A stretch of 33,275 bases of DNA from Prevotella sp. (GTDB taxonomy: Bacteria > Bacteroidota > Bacteroidia > Bacteroidales > Bacteroidaceae), in assembly GCA_017940545.1 (NCBI GenBank), contig JAGAYI010000052.1, positions 1 to 33,275 of the forward strand. The letters run 5' to 3'. The translations under genes were made by a program, and so were the position numbers. The notes beneath the pieces are model-generated. The model saw only the letters and a program-made list of their open reading frames with translations, had not been told where the DNA came from and ran no database searches. Shown one piece after another: positions 17,870 through 33,051 of this stretch; position 1 is the stretch's first letter; the number at the start of each line of letters is the position of its first letter.

Positions 17870-17881
17870 TGTTTGGAAAGT

Positions 17882-17921
17882 GTAAAAAGGTAAAAAGGTA
17901 AAAAAGTAAAATAGTAAAAAG
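17882..17921 (+). repeat. Five 8-nt GTAAAAAG-type repeats abutting a start codon
   Basis: Units at 17882, 17890, 17898, 17906 and 17914 (GTAAAAAG, with one or two changes in the third and fourth) run directly into the ATG at 17922. The reverse complement of the same unit recurs inside the gene at 17970-18009, so RNA across the start region could fold with arms of about 35-40 nt. Confidence 0.85.
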
Positions 17922-18566
17922 ATGAGAAATGAAGAATTTAAGAAAAAGGTTGCAGGTATGGTAAAATGGTTTTTACCCTTTTGCCTTTTTACCTTTTTAC
18001 CTTTAAGCGTTGTTGCTCAGGAACAGCTCGTCGTGGCCGATGCCTTTCAGTTCAGTGTACGTACAGACTATACTGCCGATGGCTCAAATATGTTGTCGCG
18101 ACCCTACCAGTCACGTTTTGGCATTGAAGGGTGGTCAGACCACATGGCCTTGGCTCTGGTGCTGACAACCGACATGGAGCAGGCTTCAGTAACCGGGCAG
18201 TCCTATAAGGCTGCCCCGGAGTCTGCCGCTGCTGCAACCCCAGCACAACCCGTTGTCTATATGGCATCGCAGCAGGGGTACCAGAATGTCACATTCTTCA
18301 GCAGCGACAAGCAGTATGCATACGTGCTCTATTTCGTTCCGGAATCACAGCGCTCGTGGCTGCTCGTCAGTCGAGTGGGAGGGGGGACTATTCAGCCTCT
18401 CTACCAGCTAAGCAACGACACTTCCCTGCTGACCGAAAGCCAGACAACGGCAGAGCTGTACGCACAGTCAGCTCAGAACAAGCACGAGAATGTCGATGCC
18501 TTCGTCAGTCTGACCGGGCGTTTGGCATCAGGCCAGTATCACGGAATCAATTATATTGAAAAGTAA
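17922..18566 (+). CDS. Uncharacterised secreted protein between nqrF and nhaD
   Basis: I do not recognise a family. The 214-aa product begins MRNEEFKKKVAG and continues into a signal peptide, 'MVKWFLPFCLFTFLPLSVVAQ', so the mature part begins near 'EQLVVADAFQF'. A second ATG at 17958 would also give a good signal peptide and may be the true start. The mature region looks like a small beta-rich domain ('SRFGIEGWSDHMALALVLTTD', 'QGYQNVTFFSSDKQYAYVLYFVPESQRSWLLVSRV') with an Ala/Pro-rich insert at about residues 93-108. There are no cysteines in the mature part and no catalytic motif. The hydrophobic core of the signal peptide is encoded by an array of 8-nt repeats. Position suggests cotranscription with nqr and nhaD, but a role in Na+ handling is only a guess. 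Confidence 0.75.
   Translation: MRNEEFKKKVAGMVKWFLPFCLFTFLPLSVVAQEQLVVADAFQFSVRTDYTADGSNMLSRPYQSRFGIEGWSDHMALALVLTTDMEQASVTGQSYKAAPESAAAATPAQPVVYMASQQGYQNVTFFSSDKQYAYVLYFVPESQRSWLLVSRVGGGTIQPLYQLSNDTSLLTESQTTAELYAQSAQNKHENVDAFVSLTGRLASGQYHGINYIEK
17970..18009 (+). repeat. 8-nt TTTTTACC array encoding the signal-peptide core
   Basis: TTTTTACC, CTTTTGCC, TTTTTACC, TTTTTACC and a degenerate fifth unit lie end to end and encode 'FLPFCLFTFLPL'. The unit is the reverse complement of the array just upstream of the start codon. Confidence 0.8.
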
Positions 18567-21659: not shown

Positions 21660-21812
21660 TGGATTTTACAATTTGGCGATTTACAATTTGTAATTGATTT
21701 CTCAATTCCGTTGATTTCTCAATTCCGTATAATATATACGATGTAAATTGTAAAATATCCAAATCGTCAAATAAATCGTAAATTGTAAATATGTAAATCG
21801 TAAATTGTCAAG
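21660..21812 (+). repeat. Repeat-filled spacer between atpD and atpC
   Basis: The 153-nt spacer carries no gene. A 17-nt unit (TTGATTTCTCAATTCCG) is exactly duplicated in tandem at 21694-21727. The rest is made of degenerate TTTACAATTTG and CAAATCGTAAATTG words in both orientations, able to pair over the spacer. A similar composition recurs between atpA and atpG. Confidence 0.7.
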
Positions 21813-22058
21813 ATGTTAAAACTGAAGATAGTTTCCCCTGAACGCATTGAGTTCTCTGGCGAAGTGGAACGCGTCAAGGTGCCTGGAACACAGGGCAACT
21901 TCGAAATTCTTACTGACCATGCACCCATTATTTCCACTTTGCAGAAAGGAGTGGTGGAGTATGGCAATGAGAAGCTCGAAATACTTGGCGGTTTCGTGTC
22001 CGTGCAGAAAAACGAGGTGTCCATCTGCGTAGAAAAAGAAGAACCGGTAGAGTCGTAA
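21813..22058 (+). CDS. atpC: ATP synthase F1 subunit epsilon (short form)
   Basis: Epsilon sits on the central stalk of F1 and contacts the c-ring. The 81-aa product has only the N-terminal beta-sandwich ('MLKLKIVSPERIEFSGEVERVKVPGTQGNFEILTDHAPIISTL...GGFVSVQKNEVSICVE'). The C-terminal helical hairpin that inhibits ATP hydrolysis in longer homologues (about 130-140 aa) is missing. Short epsilons of this kind are usual in Bacteroidota, so I treat it as complete: the frame ends cleanly at TAA 22056-22058 and no remnant of the helices follows. It is the second gene of the operon. Confidence 0.93.
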   Translation: MLKLKIVSPERIEFSGEVERVKVPGTQGNFEILTDHAPIISTLQKGVVEYGNEKLEILGGFVSVQKNEVSICVEKEEPVES

Positions 22059-23751: not shown

Positions 23752-23841
23752 TCGCAATTGACAATTGGACAAACCGGACAATTGTACGATTCCTGCGTAA
23801 AAAGTGAAATTGTAAAATAGTGAAATTGTAACATTCAGTTT

Positions 23842-26506: not shown

Positions 26507-26657
26507 TAATTTACAATTTGACGATTTACGATTTACAATTGATTCATCAATTTTGTGGATTGTGCAATTCTATTGCTCCTCAAAAGGAAAATCGTCAAAT
26601 TGCTAAATGGCAAAAATAAATTGTAAATTGTAAATTGTTAAATTGTAAATTCCCAAG
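26507..26657 (+). repeat. Repeat-filled spacer between atpA and atpG
   Basis: No gene is present. CAATTTGACGATTT (26514-26527) and AAATCGTCAAATTG (26589-26602) are perfect 14-bp inverted arms with a 61-nt loop. From 26617 the 7-nt unit TAAATTG repeats four to five times up to the atpG start. Composition matches the atpD-atpC spacer. Confidence 0.75.
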
Positions 26658-27635
26658 ATGCCATCACTGAAAGAAATAAAAGGCCGCATTGCCTCGGTCA
26701 ACAGTACACGAAAGATTACCTCTGCCATGAAGATGGTGGCTTCCTCGAAGCTGCACCATGCGCAGGTGGCCATCCAGAACATGCTGCCTTACGAGACCAT
26801 GCTCGAGCATATTCTCAAATCATTCTTGGCAGCCGAAGCAGAGGCACAGACCATCTACGACCAGCAGCGTCCCGTCAGGCGCGTAGCTCTGGTAGTCTTT
26901 TCCAGCAACTCCTCGCTGTGTGGCGGTTTCAACTCCAACGTCATCAAACTCATGCAGCAGACGGTCAACGCCTATGCCGGACAGCTCGGTCAGGAAAACG
27001 TAGAGGTTTATCCCATCGGCCGTAAAGTGGCCGAGAAGGCACAGAAACTGGGATACATCGTGCGTGGCGAACGGTCTGACATCGTTGACAAGCCCAACGT
27101 GCGCCAGTGCATTGACCTGGCCGTTGAGTTAGGAACACGTTTTGCCGACGGTGAGATTGACAAAGTTGAAATACTCTACCACCACTTCAAGAGCGCCGGT
27201 TCACAAATACTCACCCGTAAGGTGTTCCTGCCCATCGACTTGGAAAGCGAACTCGGACGTGACCACGAGCGTGACCTCACCTCTGTGCTGGCCACCAAGG
27301 AAAGCCAGGAGTACCTGAAGCGAAACAGGCGCAACCGCGCTCAAAGTGAAGGCAGTCAGGACGAGACCGCACCCCTGAACGACAACTTCATCGTGGAGCC
27401 CGACATGACCACTGTGCTCTCGCAGCTCATTCCGAAGATGGGGCACCTCATGCTCTACACGGCCCTGCTTGACAATGTCGCCTCCGAGCATGCTGCCCGC
27501 ATGGTAGCCATGCAGACGGCCACCGACAATGCCGACGAGCTGCTGCGACAGCTTAACCTGCAGTACAACAAGTCGCGTCAGCAGGCCATCACCAGCGAAC
27601 TGCTTGACATTGTGGGAGGTTCGGTCAACAACTGA
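26658..27635 (+). CDS. atpG: ATP synthase F1 subunit gamma
   Basis: Gamma is the central rotor shaft. The 325-aa product starts with the family opener 'MPSLKEIKGRIASVNSTRKITSAMKMVASSKLHHAQ' and ends with the matching C-terminal helix 'EHAARMVAMQTATDNADELLRQLNLQYNKSRQQAITSELLDIVGG'. In the middle are 'VVFSSNSSLCGGFNSNVIK' and 'HFKSAGSQILTRKVFLPI'. It is somewhat longer than E. coli gamma (287 aa) because of a charged insert at about residues 210-245 ('EYLKRNRRNRAQSEGSQDETAPLNDN'). It is the last gene of the operon and is followed by a terminator. Confidence 0.97.
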   Translation: MPSLKEIKGRIASVNSTRKITSAMKMVASSKLHHAQVAIQNMLPYETMLEHILKSFLAAEAEAQTIYDQQRPVRRVALVVFSSNSSLCGGFNSNVIKLMQQTVNAYAGQLGQENVEVYPIGRKVAEKAQKLGYIVRGERSDIVDKPNVRQCIDLAVELGTRFADGEIDKVEILYHHFKSAGSQILTRKVFLPIDLESELGRDHERDLTSVLATKESQEYLKRNRRNRAQSEGSQDETAPLNDNFIVEPDMTTVLSQLIPKMGHLMLYTALLDNVASEHAARMVAMQTATDNADELLRQLNLQYNKSRQQAITSELLDIVGGSVNN

Positions 27636-27651
27636 CGACTGCTAAACTGAT

Positions 27652-27693
27652 AAAAGAAAAGTGGGACTCACCTTGGGTTCCACTTTTCTTTTT
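27652..27693. terminator. Bidirectional terminator between atpG and the amidase
   Basis: AAAAGAAAAGTGG (27652-27664) pairs with CCACTTTTCTTTT (27680-27692). The plus strand ends in a T-run and the minus strand likewise, so it can serve both the atp operon and the convergent amidase gene. Confidence 0.85.
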
Positions 27694-27699
27694 ACGATG

Positions 27700-28110
27700 T
27701 TACCAATCCTGATACTCCGTCTTGGCATCGAAACAGGGGCAGTCCTTGTGCACGTTGGGAAGGTCGTGGTGACCGAGGATGCGGGCACCGGGGTGGGCCT
27801 TCTTCAGACGGCGTAGCAGGCGTAGCAGGGCGCGTTTCTGCATGGGTGTGCGGGTGTCGTGGGGGTTGCCCTGTTCGTCCAGTCCTCCCTCGTAGCACAC
27901 GCCGAGGCTGTGCTGGTTGTAGCCCCGGGCGTGTGCTCCCACTAGGTTCTCGTGGCGCGTCTGGTAGGTCGTCCCGTCGCGTGTGATGTAGTAGTGGTAG
28001 CCCGTGAACCCGAACCGCTTGGCATGGTCCTTGATGAGTTGTGTCACCGGATACGGCCGGTTACTCCGCGTTGCACTGCAGTGCACGACAATCATGTTGA
28101 TTCTTCGCAT
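27700..28110 (-). CDS. N-acetylmuramoyl-L-alanine amidase (amidase_2 / T7-lysozyme type)
   Basis: This enzyme cuts the bond between N-acetylmuramic acid and L-alanine in peptidoglycan. The 136-aa product has the zinc site of the amidase_2 family: His10 in 'IVVHCSAT', His114 in 'ILGHHDLP' and Cys124 in 'KDCPCFDA', with Lys122 at the catalytic Lys position of T7 lysozyme. 'GYHYYITRDGTTYQTR' and 'ARGYNQHSLGVCYEGG' are standard. There is no signal peptide, as in phage endolysins and in the many Bacteroidales copies beside smalltalk and HU genes. The start is ATG 28110, after an A-rich leader; a Met at residue 6 is an alternative. A copy of the 60-bp palindrome lies 12 nt upstream. Confidence 0.93.
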   Translation of the reverse strand: MRRINMIVVHCSATRSNRPYPVTQLIKDHAKRFGFTGYHYYITRDGTTYQTRHENLVGAHARGYNQHSLGVCYEGGLDEQGNPHDTRTPMQKRALLRLLRRLKKAHPGARILGHHDLPNVHKDCPCFDAKTEYQDW

Positions 28111-28122
28111 AGTTTTTTTTTA

Positions 28123-28182
28123 GTCCCGCAGAAATGGCGGAAATGGCAGAAATTTCCTTTATTTCCTTTATTTCTGCGGGAC
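28123..28182. repeat. 60-bp palindromic repeat, solitary copy
   Basis: The unit begins GTCCCGCAGAAAT and ends ATTTCTGCGGGAC (13-bp arms). Inside are GGAAAT/ATTTCC arms and a central GAAATTTC, separated by 3x3 internal loops. It is preceded on the plus strand by a T-run (28112-28121). It lies between the amidase and smalltalk genes, 560 bp before the five-copy array of the same unit. Confidence 0.9.
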
Positions 28183-28189
28183 AATAAAT

Positions 28190-28297
28190 TTACTTAGCAC
28201 AGCTCTGGACAAAGAATGAACTGGTGATAGCAGTGAGTACTGTGATGATGAACTGTATGATGGTCTTCCACATCTTCATGTTTTTTAGAATCTTCAT
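28190..28297 (-). CDS. Smalltalk protein (35 aa)
   Basis: Minus-strand ATG 28297 to TAA 28190 encodes MKILKNMKMWKTIIQF followed by 'IITVLTAITSSFFVQSCAK'. The pattern (Lys/Met/Trp start, one hydrophobic helix, 'SC' near the end) matches the small Bacteroidales family annotated as smalltalk protein, which typically lies next to an amidase and an HU-type protein, as here. Function is unknown. A single membrane helix spans about residues 11-30. It may start at the internal Met7 or Met9. Confidence 0.85.
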   Translation of the reverse strand: MKILKNMKMWKTIIQFIITVLTAITSSFFVQSCAK

Positions 28298-28341
28298 AAA
28301 CAATAATATTAGATAGTTGAACGTTATGTATAAAAAATGAA

Positions 28342-28743
28342 ATGACAAAAAATAGTTTCTCAACATCAGACAACGACATCACCTACCAAATTCGAGGGGC
28401 CATTTACGATGTCTATAAGAATCTTGGACCAGGGTTGTTAGAATCCGTTTATGAAGAAGCAATGGTTTACGAGCTCCAGAAACGTGGACTTAAGGTAGAG
28501 AGGCAAAAGAACGTTCCCATATGCTATGATGGCCATGAGCTTCAGACTCAATTACGGATAGACCTTTTGGTAGAAGATCGAGTTGTCGTAGAGTTGAAGA
28601 GTGTCAAGGAGATGCAGGATGTTTTTTGGAAACAAACTAGGACTTATCTCAGGCTTTTAGGTCTGAAGGTCGGAATCCTGGTTAATTTCAACACCGGCGA
28701 TATCTTGCAGAACAGTATCTATAGAGTTGTAAATGGTCTTTAG
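28342..28743 (+). CDS. GxxExxY family protein (PD-(D/E)XK nuclease-like)
   Basis: The 133-aa product has the family-naming motif GLLESVY at residues 31-37, after 'ITYQIRGAIYDVYKNLGPG'. The second half shows a PD-(D/E)XK-like core: Asp74 in 'LRIDLLVEDR', then Glu84-x-Lys86 in 'VVVELKS', and 'YLRLLGLKVGILVNFN'. The biological role of GxxExxY proteins is not known to me; the fold suggests a nuclease. It is on the plus strand while all other genes of this locus are on the minus strand. Its base composition is lower in GC than the neighbouring HU and VapE genes. Its TAG stop (28741-28743) shares its last base with the first base of the 60-bp palindrome array. These signs point to an inserted unit. 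Confidence 0.88.
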   Translation: MTKNSFSTSDNDITYQIRGAIYDVYKNLGPGLLESVYEEAMVYELQKRGLKVERQKNVPICYDGHELQTQLRIDLLVEDRVVVELKSVKEMQDVFWKQTRTYLRLLGLKVGILVNFNTGDILQNSIYRVVNGL

Positions 28744-29145
28744 TCCCGCGGAAATTGCGGAAATGGCAGAAATTTCCCTTATTTCCTTTATTCCTGCGTG
28801 ACAACAGACCATGCCTGCAGTTTTTTTAGTCCCGCAGAAATCGCGGAAATGGCAGAAATTTCCTTTATTTCCTTTATTTCTGCGGGACAACAGATCAGTC
28901 TGCATTTTTTTTAGTCCCGCAGAAATCGCGGAAATGGCAGAAATTTCCTTTATTTCTTTTATTTCTGCGGGACAACAGACCATGCCTGCAGTTTTTTATG
29001 TCCCGCAGAAATCGCGGAAATGGCAGAAATTTCCTTTATTTCCTTTATTTCTGCGGGACAACAGACCATGCCTGTAGTTTTTTAGGTCCCGCGGAAATCG
29101 CGGAAATTGCAGAAATTTCCTTTATTTCCTTTATTTCTGCGGGAC
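28743..29145. repeat. Array of five 60-bp palindromes, period 85-86 bp
   Basis: Copies are at 28743-28802, 28829-28888, 28914-28973, 29000-29059 and 29086-29145, each exactly 60 bp. Each is a long hairpin with 13-bp outer arms (GTCCCGCAGAAAT and its complement) and a 9-nt inner periodicity (GCRGAAATN). Copy 1 is the most degenerate (ends CTGCGTGAC). The spacers are 25-26 bp and nearly identical (AACAGACCATGCCTGCAG then T-run), so the whole unit is repeated. The array fills the gap between the convergent GxxExxY and HU genes. A sixth copy lies at 28123-28182. Confidence 0.93.
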
Positions 29146-29152
29146 AACAGAC

Positions 29153-29596
29153 TTAAGGCTCGGGAGTATTACCGCCTCCTTCTGGAGTTACCGTCGTAGT
29201 CTTTCCCACGCGCTTCAGCGAGGCAGCCACGTCAAGGCTCTTCGAGGTCAGTTCACCCGTGGCACGGGCACGGAACTTGACCGTCTGGATGTTTGAGCTG
29301 ACGCTGAACTCCTCCTCAGAAGCCGCACCGCCCTTGGCGTTCTTGATGCCGATGGAGAAGATGGCCAGGTCGTTGATCTTGACGTTCTTTCCCTCGAGCA
29401 TCAGCTCCTTGATACACGACACCATGTCGGTGAGCAGGCCCCTGATGACACCCTTCGAGAAGGGCGTGTTGTGACTGGCCATGTGTGCCGCCAGCTTGTC
29501 GAGGTCGATGGTCTCGTCGATGACGGGGTAGGCATAGTACTGACCATAGTAGTCAGACTTCCGGTTGTTGTTCTTCTTGAGATTGTACTTGATCAT
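29153..29596 (-). CDS. HU-family (HU-HIG type) DNA-binding protein
   Basis: The 147-aa product resembles the Bacteroidales histone-like group: 'YYAYPVIDETIDLDKLAAHMASHNTPFSKGVIRGLLTDMVSCIKELMLEGKNVKINDLAIFSIGIKNAKGG', then 'VKFRARATGELTSKSLDVAASLKRV' and a Gly/Pro/Thr-rich tail. The helical half followed by 'GKNVKINDLAIF' corresponds to the HU fold. It probably bends or packages DNA. Its stop is 7 bp from palindrome copy 5. The gene has a TACCTTTG -7 box at 29726-29733, giving a leader of about 120 nt that contains GAGGTGAGAGG-type repeats facing CTCTCACTTTTCACT-type repeats (a possible hairpin). Start ATG 29596 is the only good choice. Confidence 0.9.
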   Translation of the reverse strand: MIKYNLKKNNNRKSDYYGQYYAYPVIDETIDLDKLAAHMASHNTPFSKGVIRGLLTDMVSCIKELMLEGKNVKINDLAIFSIGIKNAKGGAASEEEFSVSSNIQTVKFRARATGELTSKSLDVAASLKRVGKTTTVTPEGGGNTPEP

Positions 29597-29725
29597 AACT
29601 GTTTGGTTTTTGTGTTGGTTACTTGATCGAGGTGAGAGGTTTGAGGTGAGAGGACGGTCTTGCTCCGCGGTAGCAAATGGACTTCGTAGATACTGCTCTC
29701 ACTTTTCACTCTTCACTTCCAACAG

Positions 29726-30004: not shown

Positions 30005-30092
30005 AAACTATATGTTTTGGTGTTGTAAACTATATGTTTCCGGGTCGTTAACCATAGGTTAAGCCTTCGTTAATGATATGTTTGTTCATACA
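30005..30092. repeat. Four iteron-like direct repeats with 22-nt period
   Basis: AAACTATATGTTT begins at 30005 and exactly again at 30027. Degenerate copies follow at 30049 (TAACCATAGGTTA) and 30071 (TAATGATATGTTT). The first three units end in GT at the same phase. The unit core is close to palindromic, and 22 nt is two helical turns. The block fills the space between DUF4248 and the end of vapE. Confidence 0.8.
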
Positions 30093-30203
30093 GATGATAC
30101 AGATGATACAGATGAACAGGTAAATTTAGGAAATTACCGCGTACGTACGTGTGCACGTACGCGTGGCTTTTCAGAAAACACCCGTATCATCTGTATCATC
30201 TGT
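30090..30203. repeat. Nested inverted repeats at the vapE 3' end
   Basis: Outer arms 30090-30109 and 30184-30203 are perfectly complementary (20 bp) and made of the 9-nt unit ACAGATGAT. Between them, CGCGTACGT (30138-30146) and ACGTACGCG (30155-30163) form a 9-bp stem with an 8-nt loop. The vapE stop codon (30171-30173) lies inside the outer loop, so the right arm encodes the end of VapE ('TDDTDD'). Confidence 0.85.
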
Positions 30204-32299: not shown

Positions 32300-32719
32300 C
32301 TAATTCCCAAAATAAGTATTGAGGAACACTTCCGGCGACAACACCGACAAACCGCCGATGGGGAAATGGCGTTTCTTGTCTCTTGTAACGATGACATCGC
32401 ACTTGGCAGCCAGGGCGGCCTCGTACTGCAGCATGTCTTCAAAGTCTGGCATCCCAGAATTGAGTGCATCCGTCACCTGAGCATCGTCCATAACAGCCGT
32501 CTTTACATAGCTCTTCAGGCTCTTAAGTCCTTTTACTGCCTGTTCGTAGCCTACATTCTTGCGTGCCGTGTACACACAGTTGGCGAAAGTCAGCGGCGTG
32601 GCGAACATCTCTATCAGCCCTCTGACGCCTAAGTCAAAGACATTCGACGAAGCCAGAAGGAACTGCTGTCTGCCCTCGATGATGTCCAGCAGGATGTTTG
32701 TATCAAGGAATACTCTCAT
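32300..32719 (-). CDS. PIN-domain toxin ribonuclease (VapC-like)
   Basis: PIN-domain toxins cleave RNA and are held inactive by a cognate antitoxin. The 139-aa product has the acidic active-site pattern: Asp6 in 'RVFLDTNILLDII', an N-terminal Glu in 'RGLIEMFATPLTFAN' (about residue 37), Asp92/Asp95 in 'MPDFEDMLQYEAALAAKCDVIVTRD' and Asp114 at its end. The closing 'LSPEVFLNTYF' is typical of the Bacteroidota/cyanobacterial PIN group. The start ATG overlaps the antitoxin stop (TAATG), so the two genes are translationally coupled. Upstream on the minus strand is the antitoxin, with the promoter at 33020-33051. Confidence 0.9.
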   Translation of the reverse strand: MRVFLDTNILLDIIEGRQQFLLASSNVFDLGVRGLIEMFATPLTFANCVYTARKNVGYEQAVKGLKSLKSYVKTAVMDDAQVTDALNSGMPDFEDMLQYEAALAAKCDVIVTRDKKRHFPIGGLSVLSPEVFLNTYFGN

Positions 32720-32988
32720 TACCGTGCGTATTTAGCAGTCAGATATTCCGTTCTGGCCCTGTCGCCGTTGATGTCGTCATCGCTGGGCACTTCAGGCTTG
32801 GCAAAGCCTATCAGCGACTGAAGCTCCGGCGACAGCTCTTCTATCTGCTTCATCTTATACGTCTTTTTCCTTGCAGGTTTAAAACGGGTGATAAGCATAG
32901 CCACCCATTCTTCCACGCTCATACCGTCGGCCTTGGCATAGTCCTGAGCCTGGCTGTACAATGTAGGATTCAAAATTATTGTTGCCAT
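32719..32988 (-). CDS. Antitoxin of the PIN toxin (DUF6364-like, ribbon-helix-helix type)
   Basis: From ATG 32988 the product is 89 aa and begins MATIILNPTLYSQAQDYAKA, with 'DGMSVEEWVAMLITRF' next. This resembles the short DUF6364/RHH antitoxins found beside PIN toxins: a beta strand followed by two helices for DNA binding. The C-terminal half ('EELSPELQSLIGF...DDDINGDRARTEYLTAKYAR') is the expected toxin-binding, flexible part. AAGGAAGG (32991-32998) precedes the ATG as ribosome-binding site, and an upstream in-frame Met is rejected because it would begin at or before the promoter. Autoregulation by the toxin-antitoxin complex is inferred from the family. Confidence 0.85.
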   Translation of the reverse strand: MATIILNPTLYSQAQDYAKADGMSVEEWVAMLITRFKPARKKTYKMKQIEELSPELQSLIGFAKPEVPSDDDINGDRARTEYLTAKYAR

Positions 32989-33019
32989 ATCCTTCCTTGT
33001 TTTATATGTTTCGACGATG

Positions 33020-33051
33020 CAAAGATAGTGCAAATCGAGCGAAAAACCAAA
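33020..33051 (-). promoter_or_regulatory. Putative promoter of the toxin-antitoxin pair
   Basis: On the minus strand TTTG (33048-33051) and TATCTTTG (33020-33027) are spaced by 20 nt, close to the Bacteroidota promoter model, 31 nt upstream of the antitoxin ATG. Confidence 0.7.

Follow-up and report, generated by a model that had tools for sequence, protein, structure and literature searches.

RAYT, the protein of the REP/RAYT systems, is a Y1 HUH transposase, and Cas4 nucleases carry a four-cysteine Fe-S site. An intervening sequence (IVS) that carries an S23 reading frame within 23S rRNA is described as excised by RNase III and as a selfish element, the term being that of its authors, and the role of the S23 protein is given there as unknown (PMC4990558). 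In Porphyromonas gingivalis, the BrickBuilt MITE is described in its abstract as consisting of intergenic 23-nt tandem repeats with small inverted ends (PMC4596501). Here we compare with these systems a GxxExxY gene and the hairpins around it in a Prevotella sp. contig. The window is the whole stretch of DNA that was analyzed, 33,275 nucleotides in length, and the features of the locus are listed in the table.

Table. Features of the GxxExxY locus, in positions of the window
Feature	Position	Strand	Remarks
Amidase_2 gene	27700..28110	-	PF01510, phrog_822; left of hairpin copy 1
Hairpin copy 1	28123..28182		Amidase on one side, smalltalk on the other
Smalltalk-type 35-aa ORF	28190..28297	-	Between hairpin copy 1 and the GxxExxY gene
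GxxExxY gene	28342..28743	+	133 aa; predicted Cas4/RecB-like PD-(D/E)XK domain
Tandem array, hairpin plus spacer	28739..29152		Period 85-86 bp, 4.8 copies
Hairpin copy 2	28743..28802		First base coincides with the last one of the stop codon of the GxxExxY gene; the most diverged copy
Hairpin copy 3	28829..28888		60-bp unit
Hairpin copy 4	28914..28973		60-bp unit
Hairpin copy 5	29000..29059		Same sequence as copy 3
Hairpin copy 6	29086..29145		HU stop codon 7 bp away
HU-HIG protein gene	29153..29596	-	PF18291; right of the array

Each unit consists of three 9-bp words (GCAGAAATC GCGGAAATG GCAGAAATT in copy 3) followed by their inverted counterpart, and is capped by GTCCC/GGGAC except in copy 2, which ends in GTGAC. 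Single units are predicted to fold with -17 to -32 kcal/mol. The initial annotation had described six exact 60-bp units; their number and positions stand, and "exact" is too strong, since copies 3 and 5 form the sole identical pair, pairwise identity ranging from 54 to 60 of 60 bases. Measurement bore out the spacers of 25-26 bp at an 85-86 bp period (Tandem Repeats Finder score 709, period 86), the start of the array at 28743 on the last base of a TAG stop codon, and one copy about 160 bp ahead of the gene (159 bp). The gene is, as had been claimed, opposite in strand to its minus-strand neighbors and lower in GC (41.3% versus 55.6% for HU, 59.0% for vapE, and 60.8% for the amidase). It had also been said to interrupt the vapE/HU genes, an account that left out the 35-aa ORF, presumably of the smalltalk type, a label taken over from that annotation. 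Since this ORF separates copy 1 from the gene, the GxxExxY gene actually stands between smalltalk and HU. A smalltalk-type ORF is found near HU in relatives, too.

The source genome is a metagenome-assembled genome (MAG) of 65 contigs, 70.5% complete, whose single GxxExxY match is the window gene. It contains eight copies of the 60-bp unit, six in the window and two on other contigs, close to their ends (C41:12000-12059, in a contig of 12293, and C20:13243-13302, in a contig of 13675). Both extra copies have amidase- and HU-like neighbors by eye, the HU match being confirmed for C41. Elsewhere in the window, a second inverted word array (ATACAGATGATACAGATG / CATCTGTATCATCTGT, 9-bp period) lies at 30088-30119 and 30179-30203, at the 3' end of vapE; it is built like the flanks of GxxExxY genes, with no GxxExxY gene adjoining. 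Short tandem word arrays at 17877-17921, 17970-18004, 21772-21816, 23797-23831, and 26617-26651 (AAAGGTAA, TTTTTACC, TAAATTG, and others) stand, by eye, mostly between genes of nqr- and atp-like clusters and are possibly relics of similar elements. At 32303-33033, on the minus strand, a PIN_3-domain protein adjoins a DUF6364 match below the cut-off, which together look like a toxin-antitoxin pair.

The window protein scored 143.2 bits against TIGR04256 (cut-off 35) and 140.3 bits against PF13366 (cut-off 22). GxxExxY and PDDEXK_3 were its only NCBIfam and Pfam matches, with neither a Y1 HUH transposase nor an S23 match among them. It models as a Cas4/RecB-like PD-(D/E)XK domain with predicted nuclease activity, an assignment that draws on the structure model, a fold match, and conserved catalytic residues. 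E34, D74, E84, K86, Q98, and Y102 are invariant in the 86 of 113 GxxExxY proteins that aligned, and the window protein has one cysteine only. The family is present in 188/299 genomes of the genus and in 59/118 genomes sampled across the phylum; among the first 100 genus genomes, a match was obtained in 65 at an E value of 0.001 and in 63 over the family cut-off. One locus (G086:C68:6002-6838) carries a tandem pair of equal-scoring GxxExxY genes.

The flanks were compared in 110 genus loci with 113 genes, taken from the top of a ranked list, 111 of which had usable, distinct flanks. The 300 bp upstream of each gene were locally aligned with the reverse complement of the 300 bp downstream, with a threshold score of at least 22. 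Words of 9-10 bp, specific to the locus, flank these best-scoring GxxExxY genes, in direct orientation upstream and inverted downstream: 79/111 reached the threshold, versus 33/1101 pairings across different loci and 0/39 other genes in the GxxExxY loci. When the control was broadened to ORFs of 100-260 aa, 21/139 were positive, made up of 18/45 in S23 loci and 3/94 elsewhere. The result was similar for held-out best-scoring GxxExxY genes from further genomes of the 299-genome search (53/79 versus 33/937 mixed pairings) and for the 29 new loci returned by the phylum search (15/29 versus 6/333). In one count, 131/189 GxxExxY genes bear such arms. Four plasmid records gave scores, taken without control, of 22.5 (Bernardetia), 24.0 (Bacteroides finegoldii), 23.0 (Gemmatirosa, with a hairpin visible downstream of the gene), and 10.5 (Sphingomonas).

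The words vary from locus to locus (CACGAATT, ACATAGTA, AAAGATTT, GACTATAG, CACGGTT, and others). Self-similarity of the arms is maximal at a lag of 9 (0.356 versus 0.285 in far flanks), and word order is mirrored between arms, 40/63 arm pairs exceeding all 60 block shuffles. At a 97.5% control cut-off, the commonest arrangement among the 111 genes was that of split arms only, with no adjoining complete hairpin (58 genes), followed by split arms accompanied by a one-sided complete hairpin (21 genes) and a one-sided hairpin with no split arms (8 genes). Both features were absent in 24 genes, and a complete scoring hairpin on both sides was found in 0/111 at this cut-off. The flank score of the window gene (34.5) comes from complete hairpins on either side rather than from split arms. 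Among 102 genes with two sizeable neighbors, these neighbors are co-directional in 79, convergent in 18, and divergent in 5. The GxxExxY gene shares the orientation of its co-directional neighbors in 73/79 cases; the window gene, antisense to its neighbors, represents the rarer state (6/79).

Gene junctions were found both near-empty and filled. We scored 30 junctions between genes that we take to be korA and korB, from the best korB matches in 100 genomes. The gap was 4-6 bp in 12/30 and 17-36 bp in 7/30, several of the latter with word remnants by eye. A 77-bp hairpin with no gene filled 1/30, a GxxExxY gene was present in 7/30, an ORF of the S23 type, flanked by words of its own, in 2/30, and 1/30 was unclear. 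The two S23-filled gaps were recognized by TIGR02436 search (L151, the G040 case) and by eye (L156). Between HU and smalltalk, 23/30 loci could be scored, an inverted repeat being defined by a self-score of at least 30, a threshold set without control. The initial annotation had proposed a search for a site free of the insert at this position, and such sites exist, the gap being below 110 bp in 11/23 scored islands. An inverted repeat was present in 9/23, six of these nine with no GxxExxY gene in the stretch examined, and a GxxExxY gene lay inside the gap in 2/23. One HU/smalltalk gap (L183, genome G266) has two tandem hairpin-plus-spacer copies and no GxxExxY gene in the stretch examined, and is thus of the array type of the window minus the gene. 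Genome G138 has two ORFs with 2 differences in 372 bases; by eye, a single hairpin encloses the first, whereas the second has a hairpin on each side. The nearest flanking blocks are 88-93% alike and the others 72-87%. The arrangement of the window resembles that of the ORF set between two hairpins. Neither target-site duplications nor excision products were seen, the korA/korB gaps having been inspected by eye with no close empty/filled pair among them.

In gut bacteria related to Prevotella, GxxExxY genes often lie between inverted word arrays at junctions that are near-empty in related species, so that gene and hairpins look like one selfish element, of a kind that has received little study. 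Most likely, the GxxExxY gene and its hairpins form one evolutionary system, nearest to the IVS in build. We consider, with a probability of roughly 0.57, that the locus belongs to a large class of selfish, IVS-like hairpin elements with a nuclease ORF, their mobility and cleavage being the inferred part. The architecture, the association, the co-variation of words and proteins described below, the near-empty and filled sites, and the conserved active site are observed; word recognition, cutting, copying, and RNA processing are the proposed steps. The basic unit would be a hairpin located at gene junctions, one arm a tandem series of 9-10 bp words and the other their inverted counterpart. Many copies would hold a small PD-(D/E)XK (GxxExxY) ORF between the arms, and some, including that of the window, would have it beside complete hairpins. 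The nuclease may recognize either the words or the hairpin in its extruded or single-stranded form, then cut there, and repair or replication would copy the hairpin, ORF included or not, to another junction. An RNA stem would enclose the ORF, as in the 23S rRNA IVS, thereby enabling the operon to tolerate the insert. In the window, the hairpin-plus-spacer unit would later have been duplicated in tandem.

An alternative is that the hairpins are independent dispersed repeats of the REP or MITE kind, in or beside which GxxExxY ORFs merely settle with no functional recognition. We regard this as unlikely, although it has the strongest claim among the alternatives. It is opposed by the co-variation of words and proteins. 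Among the 79 genes with arms, word similarity increased with protein identity (rho 0.24). For pairs differing in both genome and site (n = 2932), rho was 0.215, against a maximum of 0.111 in 999 permutations, and the correlation was replicated in held-out different-site pairs (n = 1306; rho 0.287, permutation maximum 0.156). Counting against the proposed element, DNA that can be aligned mostly stops near the start and stop codons among the 40 best pairs listed from different sites (protein identity 72-94%), although words are often similar; in one exception (L349/L353), DNA similarity continues through the arms. Same-site pairs (n = 92) share more words than different-site pairs at equal protein identity (0.147 versus 0.086 at identities of 0.35-0.45 and 0.391 versus 0.265 at 0.65-0.75), so that part of the word likeness may be local inheritance. 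Below an identity of 0.35, same-site pairs (n = 10) had a word similarity of 0.072, close to the background of 0.070. The statement that the word tracks the protein and not the site is unsupported in its second half, same-site pairs being higher in every bin above an identity of 0.35.

We also considered a residue code. At first, variation at positions 18, 21, 22, 25, 96, 100, 120, 127, and 129 seemed to follow the word more closely than overall identity would explain (for distant pairs, z was 7.1 at position 22). This candidate was rejected, 50/300 random column sets being equally good for pairs involving 21 phylum genes and 950/2000 random sets for 53 held-out genus genes.

The distribution of words away from the gene bears on the independent-repeat explanation in both directions. 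The 60-bp unit had BLAST matches in 10/100 genus genomes, and the CACAGATTTCACAGATTT word (at most one mismatch) was found in 30/100, versus 0/100 for a reversed control. All 15 genomes with at least four CACAGATTTCACAGATTT copies carry GxxExxY, versus 50/85 others (P = 0.0008; five thresholds were tried, with P values of 0.0008-0.03), which argues against independent repeats. In their favor, gene-less hairpins are widespread, CACAGATTTCACAGATTT occurs in 6/35 genomes with no GxxExxY match, and the near-identical ORFs of L339 and L343 stand in two different hairpin contexts. CACAGATTTCACAGATTT copies elsewhere in the genome were found in 8/17 genomes whose sampled gene bears the word versus 12/38, a word-specific association that is not significant with genes partly sampled (P = 0.21). 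In G045, 4/16 CACAGATTTCACAGATTT copies are at a GxxExxY gene. In 20 stretches around copies elsewhere (twelve genomes), no GxxExxY gene was found, one stretch (L132) stopping 125 bp before such a gene, and an inverted word pair was present in 13/20. The link between protein and palindrome that the initial annotation had drawn extends beyond the window, in the inverted words around GxxExxY genes and in their co-variation with the protein; the word-specific association across genomes is not significant. Its likeness to REP/RAYT pairs is retained for the association of gene and palindrome; hairpins that are often gene-less, as in six of the nine HU/smalltalk inverted repeats, and word copies that are not significantly commoner where the sampled gene bears the word argue against a strict copy of that system.

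S23 four-helix proteins (TIGR02436) were found in 52/60 genomes, and their genes had inverted word flanks in 18/27 cases versus 33/702, 3/30 loci having been dropped. This shared architecture, together with the co-orientation with neighboring genes, the mirrored arms, and the RNase III excision reported for S23 IVS in the corresponding passages (PMC4990558), would fit an explanation at the RNA level only, according to which the element is an IVS in operon mRNA with a stem cut by RNase III and any nuclease role of the protein is separate. The antisense orientation of the window gene and the retention of nuclease residues in the protein speak against this explanation, which we consider improbable. 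A role of the array in transcription termination or attenuation, or as a set of island protein-binding sites, unrelated to the gene is highly improbable: the hairpins are intergenic, the last one 7 bp off the HU stop codon, but a consensus scan of 27600-29700 gave 0 terminator-like sites (shuffles, mean 2.8), and comparable architecture occurs at the junctions of other genes. An assembly artifact, for which the fragmented MAG and the extra copies near contig ends could be invoked, can practically be dismissed, since comparable architecture is present at locus L031 of G045, a genome assembled as one contig, and on two plasmids whose record titles call them complete.

No prior description of GxxExxY hairpin elements was found in the open-access literature searched, a scope that leaves preprints and most subscription papers outside; the passages in the two papers of that literature that mention "GxxExxY" were not about repeats. 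We tentatively propose, as a possibility held less firmly than the reading of the locus itself, that GxxExxY proteins are the nucleases that mobilize selfish hairpins of a widespread class, in Bacteroidota and probably beyond, undescribed in the literature searched. Each would have its own fast-changing word of 9-10 bp and come in gene-bearing and gene-less forms, with a way of life of the S23-type IVS, which may be one branch of the class. The recurring nested architecture gives the GxxExxY family a testable role and a tie to the S23 proteins, and it may account for the repeated words at the junctions of genes. Should the nuclease act on the hairpins of its own word, the genes with arms would provide a compact nucleic acid recognition system with natural variants.

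Comparison with known systems places the GxxExxY elements at different distances from each. Unlike Cas4, the 133-aa GxxExxY protein has a single cysteine and thus lacks the four-cysteine site, and no CRISPR genes were recognized beside it in the window. REP/REPIN sequences with RAYT, in the features generally attributed to them, share palindromes with or without an adjoining gene and gene-less inverted pairs; they differ in that RAYT is a Y1 HUH transposase whereas GxxExxY is a PD-(D/E)XK protein, and in that, in the word-specific test, CACAGATTTCACAGATTT copies were not significantly tied to the gene bearing the word. BrickBuilt, from the same phylum, likewise lies between genes and consists of short repeats in tandem, bounded by small inverted ends, but its repeat is of 23 nt and its abstract mentions no nuclease ORF (PMC4596501). 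The IVS of 23S rRNA appears from its build to be a closer analogue than REP/RAYT. In both, an ORF lies between inverted repeats, a feature that GxxExxY genes show at the family level, and the IVS, in the passages describing it, encodes a protein of ~14 kDa and has short tandem repeats (GACAGAT heptamers) ahead of the start codon (PMC4990558). The window locus has protein-gene neighbors and no Rfam match above the gathering score in 27600-29700, and so is not in a 23S rRNA. The IVS lies within a helix of 23S rRNA and encodes a four-helix protein, as those passages describe (PMC4990558), whereas the GxxExxY elements carry a nuclease-like ORF, occur at protein-gene junctions with words that vary by locus, and exist as gene-less hairpins, too.
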